Counted from the stretch's first letter, positions 4,628 to 20,487 are shown. The stretch: DNA of 64,000 nt from Acidobacteriaceae bacterium (GCA_003152695.1 PMAT01000021.1:1-64000), one strand, 5' to 3'. A program made the numbers and translations. The notes: a model not told the origin generated them from the letters alone.

Positions 4628-7486
4628 CTAATTCGGTGCCTTGCCGATACTGAAAGTTGACAAGACCGGATTCGTGTCGGTCGAGAGAATGACGACCTTG
4701 GTCGGCGAAACCACAAACAGGATGCCCTGCAGGGTCCCGCCCGGATTCGAATCGACGAGCGCCCGGCCGGTAACGTCCACCTGGTAAGTGACCGCAAACT
4801 GTTGACTCTGCGGACCACCGGGACCGCTGCTGTCTTGCGAAATGTTGATGTTGCCATTCCCGTCGGCAAACAGCCAGTCAACCTGATTGGTCACCGTTGG
4901 CAAGGCTGGCGTCACCGAGCCTCCCACATAACCGCCGAGGACCGAGACATTGCTGGGAGGCACACCCGTTGTCCCCGTCAGTAGCGGCGCCAGCAGTCCG
5001 GACGTGACATTCCCATCGGTGCCAACCAGGAACGCCTGGTTGGTGTTTACCAGGTATAGGACGGGCGGAGTACCGCCGAAGCCGTTCAAGACTACTCGTC
5101 CATTCACCGGGTTTACTCTGTATTGACCGCCCGCAATCTGCTGCTGGGCCACGGTTCCACCGGTGTTTTGGTCAAACAATAGGGTGGCGTTACCGAAACC
5201 GTTTCCGTCGGTGGTGCCATCGCCGGTGAATACGCCGGCAACGCCAATCGCCTCCGGGCTACCGCCATTGGGATTAACCCCGTTGGTTTCGACAACACTT
5301 GCCCCTCGCAAGGCCAGGTTGGTGAAGATCGTGCCCGCTGAACTCCCCTTGAATACCGAAGTCAGCGTCAGAGGAGAAGTACCCGATACCTGATCGATGC
5401 TGACCTGAATCAACTCATGAGACGACACCTGGTAGTAGCTGAAGTTTTGGGCTTGGCCGCTGTTAATGCTTAGGCTGGCCGTGCCCCGGCCGGTGCTGGG
5501 ATCAGGCGCGGAGTACGAACCGCCCAAGATAGCGGCTGTCATCACTGTGCCCCCGTCATTGGTGTCGATTGTACCCTTCGTTACAGTTCCCGAGGCATTG
5601 GTCTGGAAAGCTCCGGCGCTGGCGAACCGATTGCCCCCCAGGTCGACTCCGCTCGCACCGAAGGCAAAACTGCTGGCAGCCAGCGGAACAATCGTTTGCG
5701 GCTTAATTGCACCGGAAGCGTACTCCTGCGGATTAGAAGGATCACTCTGAATGAGCATGCCCGCGCCGGTGCTGTTCACCGCTACCGCCAGAACCAGAGC
5801 CGGCCCGGTGCTATTGAAGGTCATCGTCCCCAGGCCATCGGCACCGATCGAGTAGGTTCCGGTGAAGGGCAGGCTGACCACCGGAGGGGCCCCGGCTGTA
5901 TTGGAGTCGAGCAAGCCGTTGCTGATCAACCCGGTTCCGTCAGCCGTGAATCGGCCGGCCGCAAAGACTGGCGTTCCGTTGTTGTAGCCGCTGAACGAGA
6001 AGGCATAATCGCCGGTCAGGACCGCATTGGTCAGGGCAGGATTGATGGTGAAAAGAAGAAGTCTCGAGATGGCCATGGCCGGTGGGATAGCCGAATCCTG
6101 TACCCTCACCTGAAGAGCAGAGCTCCCACTCGTGGTCGGCGTTCCCGTGATCACGCCGGTGCTGGAATTCAGCGTTAATCCGCTGGGCGGGCCGGAGAGG
6201 GCCGTCCAAGTGTAAGGTGGAGTTCCCCCGGCAGCTCCCAAGGCAGCGCTGTAGGGTACCGATAGGGTGCCCGCCGGCACCGCTGAGGTCGTAACCACCA
6301 ATCGCCCGGCAGCAATGGTAAGGGTCAAGGGAGCAGAAGCCGTGTTCATCAGGGTGTCAGTCACCTGTACCGTGATAGGAAAGTCGCCGCTGCTGCCGGT
6401 GGGCGTCCCGGCGATCACGCCAGTGCCGCTTAGCGTCAAGCCCGCCGGCAACGGTCCACTGCTAAGACTCCAGGAATAGGGCGGAACTCCGCCCGTGGCG
6501 GCCACCGGGTTCGAGTAGTAAACGCCTTGGGTAGCCGCCGGCAACGAACTGGTGGTGATCTGGAGCGGCGGCGTCGGGTTGATGGTTATGGTGAAAGTCC
6601 CGGTCGCCGTAGCGGGAGTTATTTCCGAGTCGGTTACTAGCACCGTGATCGGATAGCTGCCAGTGGTGGTAGGCGTTCCCGAGATCACGCCGGTGGCGGC
6701 AGTCAGAGACAGTCCGGGGGGCAAGGTGCCGGAGGTGATGGCCCAGTTGTAGGGTGTCATTCCGCCGGTGGCCCTTAGCTGCGAGTCGTAGAAGATGGCC
6801 ACGTTGCCATCCGGCAAGGACGTCGTAGTGATGGTGACAAGGCCTTCGATGAAGATACTTAACGGACCCGAGGTTCCGGTGGCAGGCGGCGTCTCGTTAT
6901 CGGCTACCTGGAGGGTGAACGTCGAAGTTCCCATGAGGGTAGGTGTGCCGGAAATCGTGGCCGTGTGATCAGCATTTCCGGTGAGCGTGAGTCCAGCCGG
7001 CAGGGAACCGCTGCTGACGCTCCACGTGTAAGGCAGTACTCCGCCGGTCGCAGTCAGGGTGGCGTTGTAGGGGGTGCCCACCGTGCCTCCCGGCAGTGTG
7101 GGGGGCGTGATCGATACCGCACCGCGGATGTTGATGCTCAGGATCTTGCTCCCGGTGAGAGACTTGGCATCCGTTGCCTGCACGGTGAAGGTGGCATTGA
7201 CAATCGTAGTCGGGGTGCCGGTGATCGCCCCGGTGCCGCTGTCCAAGCTCAATCCGGCGGGCAAACTTCCGGTAGTAATGCTCCAGGTGAAGGGGGGCGT
7301 TCCGGTTCCATTGGTTACATGCACAGCCGCGCTGTACGGGACATTGACCGCGCCATTCGGCAAACTCGATTCGAAGATCACCGGAGGAACTGGCGGGGCG
7401 GGCTTGGAACCACCGCCGCACGCCGCCAGGAACACGCAAAGAATAAGTGCCAACCCTAGTGCTGCAAATGCCCTATATGACCTCAT
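4628..7486 (-). CDS. Lipoprotein with five putative-Ig (He_PIG) repeats
   Basis: A 952-residue surface lipoprotein. GAGGAGA sits just upstream of the ATG. The N-terminus is a lipoprotein signal with lipobox LAAC followed by GGGSKPAPPVPP. Residues about 35-480 contain five He_PIG Ig-like repeats, each with the pattern ...LP.G.....Y...L.ATGG..PY.W....G.LP.GL.L....G.I.GTPT. The remaining half carries at least two copies of a separate beta-rich module (GDYAFSFSGYNNGTPVFAAG, FTADGTGLISNG) common in acidobacterial surface proteins. The role is probably adhesion or cell-surface structure; there is no catalytic motif. It is monocistronic, followed by the repeat cluster. Confidence 0.85.
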   Translation of the reverse strand: MRSYRAFAALGLALILCVFLAACGGGSKPAPPVPPVIFESSLPNGAVNVPYSAAVHVTNGTGTPPFTWSITTGSLPAGLSLDSGTGAITGTPTTIVNATFTVQATDAKSLTGSKILSINIRGAVSITPPTLPGGTVGTPYNATLTATGGVLPYTWSVSSGSLPAGLTLTGNADHTATISGTPTLMGTSTFTLQVADNETPPATGTSGPLSIFIEGLVTITTTSLPDGNVAIFYDSQLRATGGMTPYNWAITSGTLPPGLSLTAATGVISGTPTTTGSYPITVLVTDSEITPATATGTFTITINPTPPLQITTSSLPAATQGVYYSNPVAATGGVPPYSWSLSSGPLPAGLTLSGTGVIAGTPTGSSGDFPITVQVTDTLMNTASAPLTLTIAAGRLVVTTSAVPAGTLSVPYSAALGAAGGTPPYTWTALSGPPSGLTLNSSTGVITGTPTTSGSSALQVRVQDSAIPPAMAISRLLLFTINPALTNAVLTGDYAFSFSGYNNGTPVFAAGRFTADGTGLISNGLLDSNTAGAPPVVSLPFTGTYSIGADGLGTMTFNSTGPALVLAVAVNSTGAGMLIQSDPSNPQEYASGAIKPQTIVPLAASSFAFGASGVDLGGNRFASAGAFQTNASGTVTKGTIDTNDGGTVMTAAILGGSYSAPDPSTGRGTASLSINSGQAQNFSYYQVSSHELIQVSIDQVSGTSPLTLTSVFKGSSAGTIFTNLALRGASVVETNGVNPNGGSPEAIGVAGVFTGDGTTDGNGFGNATLLFDQNTGGTVAQQQIAGGQYRVNPVNGRVVLNGFGGTPPVLYLVNTNQAFLVGTDGNVTSGLLAPLLTGTTGVPPSNVSVLGGYVGGSVTPALPTVTNQVDWLFADGNGNINISQDSSGPGGPQSQQFAVTYQVDVTGRALVDSNPGGTLQGILFVVSPTKVVILSTDTNPVLSTFSIGKAPN

Positions 7487-15586: not shown

Positions 15587-16176
15587 ACTGGTGCCTGGTT
15601 CCCCAGCGGATTGCTTCTGTGGCTGCACAGAACGCAATTTCGTCGAATGGGTATCTCTTCATTATACGATGGGATAGAAGCGGGCCGCGCGGCGTAATGG
15701 CGGAGCGGTCGCGATCCAGGCATCGGCATTTATGTCGGGGGGAGCGCTTCCACCATGCTTGGCTTGAGTGCTCCAACCTCCCAAAATCTAAACTGTTGCA
15801 GCCGGATTCGGTTGAAGGCTGTTGACATCGAGAGCTTTCGCGATCAGAGCCTTGGAGCGATAAATAATTAGATATTGCTGAAGTTGGCACTTGACTTTAT
15901 CCCACGAGTAGATACGATTTGTGCACGAAATGAGCGGGAACTGCGCCAGTTTCAACAGAAATGACCCCAAGGGCCGAGCCGTGCCCATCGTGTCGCTTCT
16001 GGCCGATTGTAGAGCGCTTCCATCAAGGCAGGATGGCTGCTTGGGATAGAAGAAGCAACTGCCGCAGTAGTGAATCACCCGAGCGATGTGGGAGAGTAGC
16101 CAGTTCTACCCTCGTTAGATCAACCACCCAAGATCAGACACGATCCGGCAATGGAATGCCGGTCCAGGAGGGAGCT
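15587..16176. other. Gap between uvrB and the G8 protein gene
   Basis: The minus strand holds a TATAAT at 15661-15666 for uvrB. The plus strand is open upstream of 16177, but its codons are Arg/Cys-rich and not protein-like. A TTGACA at 15822-15827 has no matching -10 at proper spacing. Nothing else was recognised. Confidence 0.4.
15661..15666 (-). promoter_or_regulatory. -10 box for uvrB
   Basis: TATAAT on the minus strand, 74 bases upstream of the uvrB ATG. No convincing -35 or LexA box was seen. Confidence 0.35.
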
Positions 16177-19100
16177 ATGTGCATCTATCTGAGAGCTACT
16201 TTTAACAATGATGTCGGAGCAACGGCAGCAGTTCCACGACAGGTACGCGGGCGGACCCGGTTATCTGGCAGCCTTCTGAGGGCTGTGCTACGCCAGTTGC
16301 ATTGTGCTCTGTCCCGTTTGTTGCATGCAGCACTTAACAAACGCGAAAACAGCTGGACTCGGGTTCCGCTGCTCCGTCGACTTCTGGAAACGACGTTCTC
16401 TCTGATCTGCTTTGCGGTTTTGGGGGTGAGCTTGTCGGCCATTGCCGCCGCGCAGATGGTGATGGACATCGACCACGAAGCACAGGTCAACCGACTCCAT
16501 CCGGACGACTCCCCGATCATCACTTGTCCGGATGCGATAGGCAACAAATCATTGCCGGCTGGCAATTATGACTCGAATCTGCATGTCGTGGGAGAGTGCA
16601 TCGCTGACGGGACGCAGGGAGGTGGCATCTATAAGTATCACTGGGTCTTCATCCACAATGGCGGCGCGCTCACATTTCAGGACAAGAAGCTCGACCTGTA
16701 CGCCTCGTCCATCCTGGTGATGAACGGCGGCGCGCTACGCGCGGGCGTGCCGGATGACCTTGGTGCCATCGCTGGGCCGCTAACCATTCATCTATGGGGT
16801 GCACCGGGCGATCCCGCGATTCCGTGCGAAAAGGCCGATGGAACCAACGATCCCACCTGCGACGTCGCTACATGGAATGACTCCAATAAGATGGGCCAGA
16901 TCTATCCCAGCGGGTGCAAAACTGACCCGGTGCTGGGAGACTGCTTCTACCAATACGATAATCCCAACAAGAGCGACCTCTATTTCGGACGCAAAGTGCT
17001 GGCGGTCTCGTACGGCGGGACTTTGCAGCTCTTCGGCAAAAAGGGATCCACCTTCGACGGGTTGGATCCGACGCCCTCGAGCACCGGCAAGAGTTGGACA
17101 AGATTGACGACCAATCTAGCCATGGGCGAGATGACATTCCAGGTCGCCGGGCAAGTGGACTGGACGGGCGGTGATCACATCCTAATCAGCCCGACCGATT
17201 ACCTGCCGGGCCATGCGGAAGAAGCAGTCATCGCTGACGCTGAGTATGATTCGGCAGCTGATAGCTCCAGCATCACGATCAGCGGAGTCGTTCTGGACAC
17301 TGGAAAGTTTCTGGAGGGAGGCGTGCGCTTCCCACACAATGGAACGGCCTATCCCGTGCCGGCGGACGTCAAAGCCAAGCTGGAACTCGATCGTGACGTG
17401 GTCGACACTCGCGCAGCAGCAGCGCTGCTGTCGCGCAGCATCCGCATCGTCTCAGAGGGCAACACCGGTCCGGATACTTCGAACGGCACCGATCCCTACT
17501 TCCCGCCTACCGTGGGCAACTACTTTGGCGGTCATGTGATCTTTCGCCAGGGATTCAAGCAAGTCCAGTTACAAGGTGTTGAGTTCCGCCAGTTAGGACA
17601 GGGCGGACTGATGGGCCGCTATCCGGTGCACTTCCACATGGACCGCAAGGTCCCACCGGATACCTTCGTAAAAGACTGTTCGATGAATGAGTCGATGACG
17701 AGATGGATCACGATCCACGGCAGCCAAGGCGCGCTGCTGGCGCGCAATGTAGGGTGGAAGTCCATCGGCCACGGGTTCTTCGTAGAAGATGGTACGGAAA
17801 CCGACAATAAGTTTTACGCCAACATCGGCGTTCTGGCGCGCGCGGGAGTACAGAACATTGAGAACCCGCGCCAGGTCCCCGGCATCCTGGCCAACCAGGA
17901 CGCTGGAGAAGTCCGAGCGCCGTTCAATTCCGATTGGCAGCATCCCAGCATCTTTTGGATCATGAATGGGTGGAATGATTTTGAGTACAACATGGCGGCG
18001 GGCGCGGGTTCGTGCGGCAATTGCTACTGGCTGCCTGCTGGAGCTAACAGCGGCCCTTCGCGTTATGAGTACTGGACCGGATATGCCTCGCGGCAACGCG
18101 GCTTACAGAACCTGCCGGGATTGCGCGACTACAATGTCGGCACCTCTCCGCTGGAAAAGTTCGTTGGGAACTCCTGCTCGACCGCCATGTTTTCGTTCAT
18201 GGAGGTAGGCAATCCAGATTTCACCTGCCAAGGATTCGGTCCCAAGTCGACCAACAGCGTAGCTGCCATTCCGGGCAACGGCCCCAGCATTCCGGCCGCC
18301 GGCGTAATTCCGGCTTCCGCATACGACTACTACCCCATCACCTCCGGCAACCGTGACCCCACGAAGTGCAATAACCTTGACAAGGACTGCGGCAGCAATA
18401 CCGATCCCAACAACATCAAGTGCGGTGGATCGAACGATATCGCAGAAGCCAACTGCATGGTCACCGTGCTGGATCACTACACCACTTCCTTCAACTGGTC
18501 GGAGAAGAACTTCTCCTCCATCTGGATGCGCAACTGGTGGAAGCTGGTAACTGACAGCGCCGTCACCGATCAACTGGGAGGCGGTTTAACCATGGTGACC
18601 GGTGGCGGTTATACCCGTTCCGATAATGCGATCGGCAACTGGCTGGTGGGCTTGAGGAACGTGTATGTAGGACAGACCCAGAAAACTCCCACCGCCCTAG
18701 CACAAAAATTCTATGCTTCTAACGTCGGCCCGGTCACCCCTCAGGGCATCAGCTGCGATAACGGAACCAACCCCCAGGGATATTGCCTGTCCGCCGCAAA
18801 TGGCATCAGTTTCACTCTCACGCCCTTCAACTCCGGCCAGCGCATGTTCAATATCTACGATGGCCCGTCCTTCCAGGACTCCAGTGCGTATCTCAATATC
18901 AAGGCGGGAGCCATCTCGGACTGCACTCCCGGTAAGCGGAGTCCGGGCGACGGGGTGTGCGACGACAGCAAGTATATGTACGGGCACACCATCGGCCTGT
19001 TGCAAGGCACGCCTGACATCCACAAGCCTGACGTCAAGGAGTGCTATATACCCAACGCGGCCATCGCCTGGAAGCAGGAGAACGGTTTTTACTATCCTCC

Positions 19101-20487
19101 CGCCTTCTTCTCGCGGAACCTCGTCTTCCGGGATGTGGATATCCGGCATTTTGTTATCGAGCCGTTGTTCGAACTGAACACCTTCAAGCTCGATGTTTCG
19201 TCCACCAAGGCGCGCTATTGCACCTGGACCAATGATATCTTCAAACCGTTTAACGATATCGACCGGCAAACGGTTCTCAACGATACCGATGGCTCATTGA
19301 CCGGGCTGCTGGCCAACACGACCCCTCCGCGGGAGACGTTATCGGTCAACGAGGACCTCTTCTTCCGGGCTCCCAACGTGGTGCCAGAATGCTCCTCGGA
19401 CAAGCACTACGCCCCGCTTGGAATGCCCGTTGACCAGAGGGGCAAACCGGCGACGGCGATCACCAGCCCCCACGAATATGTCACCACGGCGATCATTGCC
19501 GACTGCGCATTGAAATCGGTGGTCGACAAGTGTCTCGATCCTCCAAAGTGCACTCAATGGGACCGCAAAGCCGAATGTGGCATCGGTACGGACGGACAGA
19601 GAAACTGGACTTGGGCCGGAACTCACGCCTACGGCGCACCCCTCTTCCGGCAGTACTGGACGGCGGAGGACAACAGCGACTGCGAAAAGGATCCGCTCTG
19701 CAAGACCGATCCGCTTCACCGCCCTGGTCGGATCACCATGATGGGACAAGACTCGGGCCAGCGCAGTACCCTGACCTCGAACGATACCTGGTATTACATT
19801 GACACCACCGTGCCCGCCAGCCAGCAGACCGGCGTCCCCGATCAGAACGGCAGGAGTGTTTTCCTCTCCGGGCACACCTACTACGTGTATCTCGTCTATG
19901 GAACACCTACTACCCACATGACCTACTGGATGTATGTGGGTAGTGGGGCGGACGAAAAGACGGTCGAGGACGAGGTCGGACGCTATCGGGTAAATGTGGA
20001 TAGCCAGATCTATGGGTTCAATCCGGTAACAATCGGCACTGGCAAGAACCCGGAATTCTTAACCGATGTGAACTACGATCCGATGAGCGGCTGGTTGAAG
20101 GTGACCCTCGATTTGTCGAAGTACGGATGCGGTGGCGATGATCAAACCTGCGAGTTCCAGAATGACAAAAAGAACTTCTGCAAACCAGTCTCGTATTGCT
20201 CCTGGAACAGTGACACCAAGAGCTGCGGGTGCGCTGCCGGGTCCGACTGCAAAGATCCTTCGGTTTGTGCCTGGGGAACCCAGCCGCCCGATTGCCCCAC
20301 CGGAGGCTGTTTTGGTTTCAGCTTTCAAATACAACCGCAGTTCGACCAGGGCAATAAACCGGGGCCTCCGATGTGGCAGAAGTTCCCAGACGACGATACC
20401 TGGAAGGTCGCTCTGTCGGGAGTCAAAGAAGGCACCTCGGGACCTGAGTGCTACTACGGGGGGGGACAGCCTAAACAAAAGCAGTAA
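16177..20487 (+). CDS. Large secreted G8/parallel beta-helix protein, CEMIP/TMEM2-like
   Basis: A 1,436-residue protein. The ATG at 16177 follows CAGGAGG; a 64-residue basic N-region precedes the hydrophobic export segment (about residues 74-93, ending AIAAAQ). A G8-like segment lies at about residues 157-195 (WVFIHNGGALTF...SSILVMNGGALRAG). Next come SWTRL...VDWTGGDHILIS, GVEFRQLGQGG, GRYPVHFHM (480-488), WITIHGSQG and GHGFFVEDGTE. This order closely parallels the G8-PbH core of animal CEMIP/KIAA1199 and TMEM2, which degrade hyaluronan. The Cys-rich C-terminal 300 residues are unassigned. The substrate is unknown; a polysaccharide is an inference. It is flanked by non-coding sequence and appears monocistronic. 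Confidence 0.75.
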   Translation: MCIYLRATFNNDVGATAAVPRQVRGRTRLSGSLLRAVLRQLHCALSRLLHAALNKRENSWTRVPLLRRLLETTFSLICFAVLGVSLSAIAAAQMVMDIDHEAQVNRLHPDDSPIITCPDAIGNKSLPAGNYDSNLHVVGECIADGTQGGGIYKYHWVFIHNGGALTFQDKKLDLYASSILVMNGGALRAGVPDDLGAIAGPLTIHLWGAPGDPAIPCEKADGTNDPTCDVATWNDSNKMGQIYPSGCKTDPVLGDCFYQYDNPNKSDLYFGRKVLAVSYGGTLQLFGKKGSTFDGLDPTPSSTGKSWTRLTTNLAMGEMTFQVAGQVDWTGGDHILISPTDYLPGHAEEAVIADAEYDSAADSSSITISGVVLDTGKFLEGGVRFPHNGTAYPVPADVKAKLELDRDVVDTRAAAALLSRSIRIVSEGNTGPDTSNGTDPYFPPTVGNYFGGHVIFRQGFKQVQLQGVEFRQLGQGGLMGRYPVHFHMDRKVPPDTFVKDCSMNESMTRWITIHGSQGALLARNVGWKSIGHGFFVEDGTETDNKFYANIGVLARAGVQNIENPRQVPGILANQDAGEVRAPFNSDWQHPSIFWIMNGWNDFEYNMAAGAGSCGNCYWLPAGANSGPSRYEYWTGYASRQRGLQNLPGLRDYNVGTSPLEKFVGNSCSTAMFSFMEVGNPDFTCQGFGPKSTNSVAAIPGNGPSIPAAGVIPASAYDYYPITSGNRDPTKCNNLDKDCGSNTDPNNIKCGGSNDIAEANCMVTVLDHYTTSFNWSEKNFSSIWMRNWWKLVTDSAVTDQLGGGLTMVTGGGYTRSDNAIGNWLVGLRNVYVGQTQKTPTALAQKFYASNVGPVTPQGISCDNGTNPQGYCLSAANGISFTLTPFNSGQRMFNIYDGPSFQDSSAYLNIKAGAISDCTPGKRSPGDGVCDDSKYMYGHTIGLLQGTPDIHKPDVKECYIPNAAIAWKQENGFYYPPAFFSRNLVFRDVDIRHFVIEPLFELNTFKLDVSSTKARYCTWTNDIFKPFNDIDRQTVLNDTDGSLTGLLANTTPPRETLSVNEDLFFRAPNVVPECSSDKHYAPLGMPVDQRGKPATAITSPHEYVTTAIIADCALKSVVDKCLDPPKCTQWDRKAECGIGTDGQRNWTWAGTHAYGAPLFRQYWTAEDNSDCEKDPLCKTDPLHRPGRITMMGQDSGQRSTLTSNDTWYYIDTTVPASQQTGVPDQNGRSVFLSGHTYYVYLVYGTPTTHMTYWMYVGSGADEKTVEDEVGRYRVNVDSQIYGFNPVTIGTGKNPEFLTDVNYDPMSGWLKVTLDLSKYGCGGDDQTCEFQNDKKNFCKPVSYCSWNSDTKSCGCAAGSDCKDPSVCAWGTQPPDCPTGGCFGFSFQIQPQFDQGNKPGPPMWQKFPDDDTWKVALSGVKEGTSGPECYYGGGQPKQKQ

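Follow-up and report, generated by a model that had tools for sequence, protein, structure and literature searches.

The window analysed here is the whole 64,000-nucleotide stretch of DNA from an Acidobacteriaceae bacterium (PMAT01000021.1:1-64000), and the gene under study lies on its plus strand in a frame that is open from 15961 to 20487. We take the ATG at 16177 as the best-supported start because an exact AGGAGG Shine-Dalgarno sequence precedes it by five bases (Table 1). The signal segment was assigned by eye, which places the beginning of the mature protein at about 16453 and gives a protein of about 1,350 residues that is predicted to be exported. The region preceding the signal segment is strongly basic (pI about 11.7 for 16177-16446), and the sequence-only reading had singled it out as unusual. 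This stands only in part: the region exists provided that translation begins at 16177, and similarly long leaders occur in two close relatives; most relatives carry ordinary, shorter ones. As codon-position GC bias is also weaker there than in the gene body, we do not consider it typical of the family. Neither a tRNA nor a credible Rfam match was found beneath the 5' region of the ORF. Comparison with the nearest full-length relative (dN 0.24; dS 2.06, which is saturated) indicated purifying selection. The gene is the only CEMIP-family copy in its genome.

Table 1. Features of the G8/CEMIP-type gene and of its recurrent neighbour (window coordinates, except for the neighbour, which is given in those of locus L061; model residues are those of the AlphaFold2 model)
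Feature	Position	Strand	Remarks
NHL/Vgb-type propeller lipoprotein	L061 14027-16054	either strand across loci	also beside L066, L069, L070, L071, L073, L074, L090
Ribosome-binding site AGGAGG	16166..16171	+	5 nt upstream of ATG 16177
CDS of G8/CEMIP-type protein	16177..20487	+	most likely start; ORF open from 15961
Basic N-region preceding signal segment	16177..16395	+	73 codons; not conserved in most relatives
Hydrophobic signal segment FSLICFAVLGVSLSAIAAA	16396..16452 (about)	+	assigned by eye
G8 domain match (first beta-helix rungs)	16633..16800	+	Pfam, 34.5 bits, cut-off 22.9
CEMIP beta-helix (PF24606)	17521..18069	+	Pfam CEMIP_beta-hel; aligned to TMEM2 8c6i
VHFH motif, two invariant His (TMEM2 His550 and His552)	17626..17637	+	model strand 374-377
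Invariant His (TMEM2 His585)	17716..17718	+	same strand, next rung
Invariant Glu pair in EDGTE (TMEM2 Glu608 and Glu612)	17785..17799	+	third rung
Long inter-strand loop (model residues 446-480)	17842..17946	+	same place as TMEM2 loop 627-662
Invariant Trp (TMEM2 Trp666)	17956..17958	+	fourth rung
C-terminal part beyond helix	19180..20484	+	TMEM2 8c6i is the sole fold match with E under 1e-3
Cys-rich tail	20179..20484	+	Cys conserved in long family

The gene neighborhood gave little indication of a pathway. Neighbours vary between loci, and no conserved sugar-related operon or polysaccharide-use cluster was found. The only widely recurrent neighbour is a propeller lipoprotein of the NHL/Vgb-lyase type, which lies beside the gene of the long form at 8 loci. 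In the window the neighbours are a uvrB-like gene (by eye), a saccharopine-dehydrogenase-like gene and 2-oxoacid dehydrogenase genes. A GH88 unsaturated-glucuronyl hydrolase was not found in the window's genome. The minus strand of the window encodes, at 4628-7486, a 952-residue protein of repeated putative Ig (He_PIG) domains that is probably a surface protein.

The window protein is a member of the G8/CEMIP superfamily. The sequence-only reading had proposed a G8 domain followed by a CEMIP/TMEM2-type beta-helix, and this was confirmed by curated Pfam profiles, profile search and fold search; all the motifs it quoted are present in the ORF. Both domain matches exceed their curated Pfam cut-offs, the values for CEMIP_beta-hel being E 2.1e-47 and 162 bits against a cut-off of 27.3. 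Among the 32 family members scanned, the CEMIP beta-helix was recovered in every one and G8 in 31 (E 0.01). A phmmer search of the PDB with the window protein retrieved human TMEM2 (8c6i) with an E-value of 4e-26, the next match being photosystem I at 0.016, and the 32-member family profile retrieved TMEM2 alone (E 4.3e-53). The profile alignment spans residues 64-157 (G8 rungs) and 337-609 (beta-helix) of 8c6i, with a weak extra segment at 703-768. No NCBIfam family match was found for the window protein. A weak similarity to PsaA at 18448-18651 (residues 758-825 in the frame from 16177; phmmer E 0.016, NCBIfam E 0.32) was set aside as most likely a chance resemblance of an aromatic-rich segment.

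An AlphaFold2 model of 1,200 residues, covering 16507-20106, was obtained with a mean pLDDT of 78 and a pTM of 0.84, most of the helix core scoring above 90. Foldseek matched it to TMEM2 8c6i (E 6e-29, TM 0.51, 1,414 alignment columns), so that, whether judged by sequence or by fold, human TMEM2 is the only close relative of solved structure. The matches that followed were K1 capsule lyase (1.5e-6), other polysaccharide lyases, phage depolymerases and GH110/GH87 hydrolases, and the viral fold library returned only generic beta-helix tail spikes and similar proteins. The C-terminal part showed no match to TMEM2 by sequence. Its model matched 8c6i with an E-value of 9e-4 and a low TM of 0.33, which suggests, without proving, that this part is a counterpart of TMEM2 domain X. 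The TMEM2 features looked for here were the beta-sandwich of domain X and the second lectin-like domain.

Scanning 84,980 species genomes gave 56 loci, of which more than 40 encode near-full-length proteins with 32-68% identity to the window protein. The conservation runs through the Cys-rich C-terminus, a feature already pointed out from the sequence and now seen to be conserved across the long family. The long form is carried by Acidobacteriota, by MAGs labelled Binatota and Deltaproteobacteria/Myxococcota, by Dadabacteria and by Alpha- and Gammaproteobacteria. Seven named cultured species have it: Methylotetracoccus oryzae, Thiocapsa marina, T. roseopersicina, Nitrobacter vulgaris, N. winogradskyi, Methylobacter tundripaludum and Methylocella silvestris. 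At closer taxonomic range, the CEMIP family is present in 6 of 9 genomes of the window's genus (the window's own counted, copies up to three), in none of the 51 genomes sampled from other genera of its family, and in 9 of 396 genomes phylum-wide (again including its own). No phage relatives were found by tblastn.

In a tree of the core, the long clade is monophyletic and stands apart from the shorter bacterial G8 proteins (SH-aLRT 100). The best of the short forms share 35-42% core identity with TMEM2 versus 26-31% for the long clade, and the window protein is therefore a divergent branch rather than the nearest bacterial relative of TMEM2. A recent transfer into the window's lineage was considered, as the core-only tree places the window protein and L046 among proteobacterial sequences. 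However, the full-length tree mostly unites the Acidobacteriota, and the hypothesis that they form one clade could not be rejected (p-AU 0.099); for these reasons we make no claim of recent transfer.

In one genome of the window's class (G083, loci L032 and L033), a short CEMIP-type protein shows 81% identity over 333 residues to another such protein on plasmid NZ_CP011453.2 of the alphaproteobacterium Croceibacterium atlanticum, reflecting either a transfer of recent date or contamination of the bin by foreign contigs. Another genome (G077, L029-L031) holds five copies of a short CEMIP-type protein, two pairs of which lie less than 7 kb apart, and this is a local expansion. Three proteins from Dadabacteria/Thermodesulfobacteriota (L062, L072, L075) begin with pentapeptide repeats, and two of them (L062 and L075) also end in a hydrophobic anchor. 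RTX calcium-binding repeats are found at the C-terminus of the CEMIP-type proteins of Methylotetracoccus (L050) and of a Deltaproteobacterial MAG (L082), suggesting type I secretion of these two proteins.

To define the conserved core, we aligned 51 sequences (TMEM2, 29 long and 21 short bacterial forms) with pairwise identities down to 21%. Fifteen of the 262 core columns are invariant: H471, G540, Y547, H550, H552, H585, G602, E608, E612, N615, N620, W666, N672, N677 and G686 in TMEM2 numbering. This numbering was checked with Cys554, described as unpaired (PMC10206443), which falls at the predicted place. Without the glycines, human TMEM2 and the bacterial branch thus have in common H, Y, H, H, H, E, E, N, N, W, N and N. 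The histidine pair for which the sequence-only reading had foreseen a pocket (His485/His487 in the frame from 16177) is conserved in all 51 sequences, human TMEM2 included. Of the two outcomes that would have spoken against that reading, neither arose, since the G8 and CEMIP matches are significant and these histidines do not vary. DSSP strands of the model at residues 374-377, 401-404, 424-426 and 481-485 each form the third strand of a rung, one rung following the next (the rung assignment being ours). From these positions H375/H377, H404, E427 (which adjoins its strand) and W484 would stack on one face, a predicted column that draws on the secondary structure of the model and on the alignment. 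Invariant residues can be structural, and a role in structural Asn ladders would fit N439 and N495 (with the near-invariant N414), as well as N434 and N490, all of which sit just ahead of strands at positions that recur. A candidate pocket may lie beside loop 446-480. The corresponding TMEM2 loop 627-662 was described as obstructing the usual active-site region; the authors of the structure found the mid-helix, where most beta-helix active sites lie, obstructed and could not assign a site (PMC10206443).

What is established is the homology, together with the beta-helix fold (as modelled with good confidence), the full-length conservation across phyla and the invariant set common to human TMEM2. 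On this basis we think it reasonably probable that the window protein is an exported polysaccharide-active enzyme forming part of a distinct long bacterial branch of the CEMIP/TMEM2 (G8 plus parallel beta-helix) superfamily. Our best reading is a secreted or surface polysaccharide depolymerase, for which we infer catalysis at an ancient active site common to TMEM2. The column H375/H377, H404, E427 and W484, with Y372 and E431 close in sequence, would line a groove that binds glycan and is covered in part by loop 446-480, and would make up the active site. An acidic polysaccharide chain would be cut internally by acid/base hydrolysis, beta-elimination being less likely. The substrate would more probably be the exopolysaccharide of the cell itself or of a neighbour than hyaluronan, which is an unlikely substrate. 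The sequence-only reading had cautioned that hyaluronan need not be the substrate, in agreement with the kinds of organism that carry the gene and with a genome that lacks GH88. Thiocapsa, Nitrobacter, Methylotetracoccus, Methylobacter and Methylocella are phototrophs, nitrite oxidisers or methanotrophs, and since these are the cultured carriers, exopolysaccharide remodelling is more likely than feeding on hyaluronan, judging from a small sample and general knowledge of the genera. The RTX repeats of some relatives and a C-terminal hydrophobic segment with basic residues in others are consistent with secretion or surface anchoring.

The protein could instead be a non-catalytic secreted beta-helix protein, such as a glycan-binding surface adhesin or matrix scaffold, its His/Glu cluster binding metal or serving a structural role. 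TMEM2 itself was inactive in one study (PMC10206443), enzymatic activity of the bacterial members is something that we infer, and such a role would suit a Cys-rich protein of very large size that belongs to no glycan operon and has relatives with pentapeptide repeats or a membrane anchor. We nevertheless find it doubtful, as four His, two Glu, a Tyr and a Trp stay invariant down to 21% identity, beyond what is usual for scaffolds, and the fold matches after TMEM2 are mainly polysaccharide-cleaving enzymes. It is less likely still that a catalytic protein serves in foraging on polysaccharides of plants or peat (Sphagnum material rich in uronic acids, or pectin-like material) and not in remodelling microbial exopolysaccharide. 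Uronic-acid polymers are often targets of beta-helix enzymes (PMC10206443) and the MAGs of the genus nearest the window are named palsa and bog in their records, but none of the seven named cultured carriers of the long form is a polymer eater, the window's genome has no GH88, and no glycan-use cluster was found around the gene. A genuine hyaluronidase function, with hyaluronan or chondroitin of animal or other host origin as substrate, might be implied by the TMEM2 homology and common invariant residues but is very improbable for a protein that lacks TMEM2 lectin-like domain 1, the site of all reported activity-abolishing substitutions (PMC10206443), that comes from a genome devoid of GH88, and whose carriers are mostly from soil, peat, water or sediment.

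A wider and more tentative proposal can be made, one that we would not yet back over its alternatives. The His-Tyr/His/Glu/Trp column would be an ancient catalytic site common to all of the CEMIP/TMEM2 superfamily, and the site of TMEM2 (Tyr547, His550, His552, His585, Glu608, Glu612, Trp666) would hence lie beside the supposedly obstructing loop. The lectin-like insert with Arg265, absent from these bacteria, would be an animal-side addition that presents the substrate, and the bacterial branch would be a new family of polysaccharide depolymerases in autotrophs, methanotrophs and soil acidobacteria. The enzymatic status of TMEM2 is disputed (PMC10206443 versus PMC10474455; summary in PMC12254123), and for this reason the invariant set offers a lead that can usefully be tested. 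With the dispute and the unassigned site of the crystal-structure paper, bacterial relatives could help to locate the site: without the animal lectin insert they narrow the conserved core to 15 positions, a short list of residues to test, and they are simpler proteins to assay than TMEM2. The long bacterial branch is widespread, and with it a CEMIP-type core is seen in many bacteria not expected to meet hyaluronan. In the openly available literature we found neither a description of this branch nor any papers on bacterial G8/CEMIP members.

Compared with the TMEM2/CEMIP2 ectodomain (8c6i) and with CEMIP/KIAA1199, the latter through its Pfam model only, the window protein has the same architecture of a G8 domain opening a parallel beta-helix and a CEMIP beta-helix. 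With TMEM2 it further shares the invariant His/Glu/Tyr/Trp/Asn set and the placement of the long loop, at a core identity of about 28-30%. Where TMEM2 has about 180 residues (8c6i 157 to 337) comprising a small beta-sandwich and lectin-like domain 1 (PMC10206443), the bacterial profile has 29 positions, and the profile alignment shows that lectin-like domain 1, with Arg265, Asp273 and Asp286 of TMEM2, is absent from the window protein, which is therefore not an animal TMEM2/CEMIP proper. The animal resemblance first noted in the sequence thus holds for the core, in a divergent bacterial branch. The window protein also has a Cys-rich C-terminus of its own with no sequence match to TMEM2, and is predicted to be an exported bacterial protein whereas TMEM2 is a membrane-anchored animal protein. 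K1 capsule lyase (7w1c), chondroitinase B, GH110 and GH87 have a right-handed beta-helix as well, but K1 lyase, GH110 and GH87 are weak Foldseek matches with 7-9% identity and low TM-scores, and the beta-helix lyases and depolymerases have no G8 domain and no demonstrated VHFH/EDGTE set. The short bacterial G8 proteins (about 650-1,300 aa; for example L032, L096, L099 and the protein of plasmid NZ_CP011453.2), whose annotated plasmid relatives carry only the name "G8 domain-containing protein," mostly lack the long C-terminal part but have the same G8-CEMIP core and the same 15 invariant positions.
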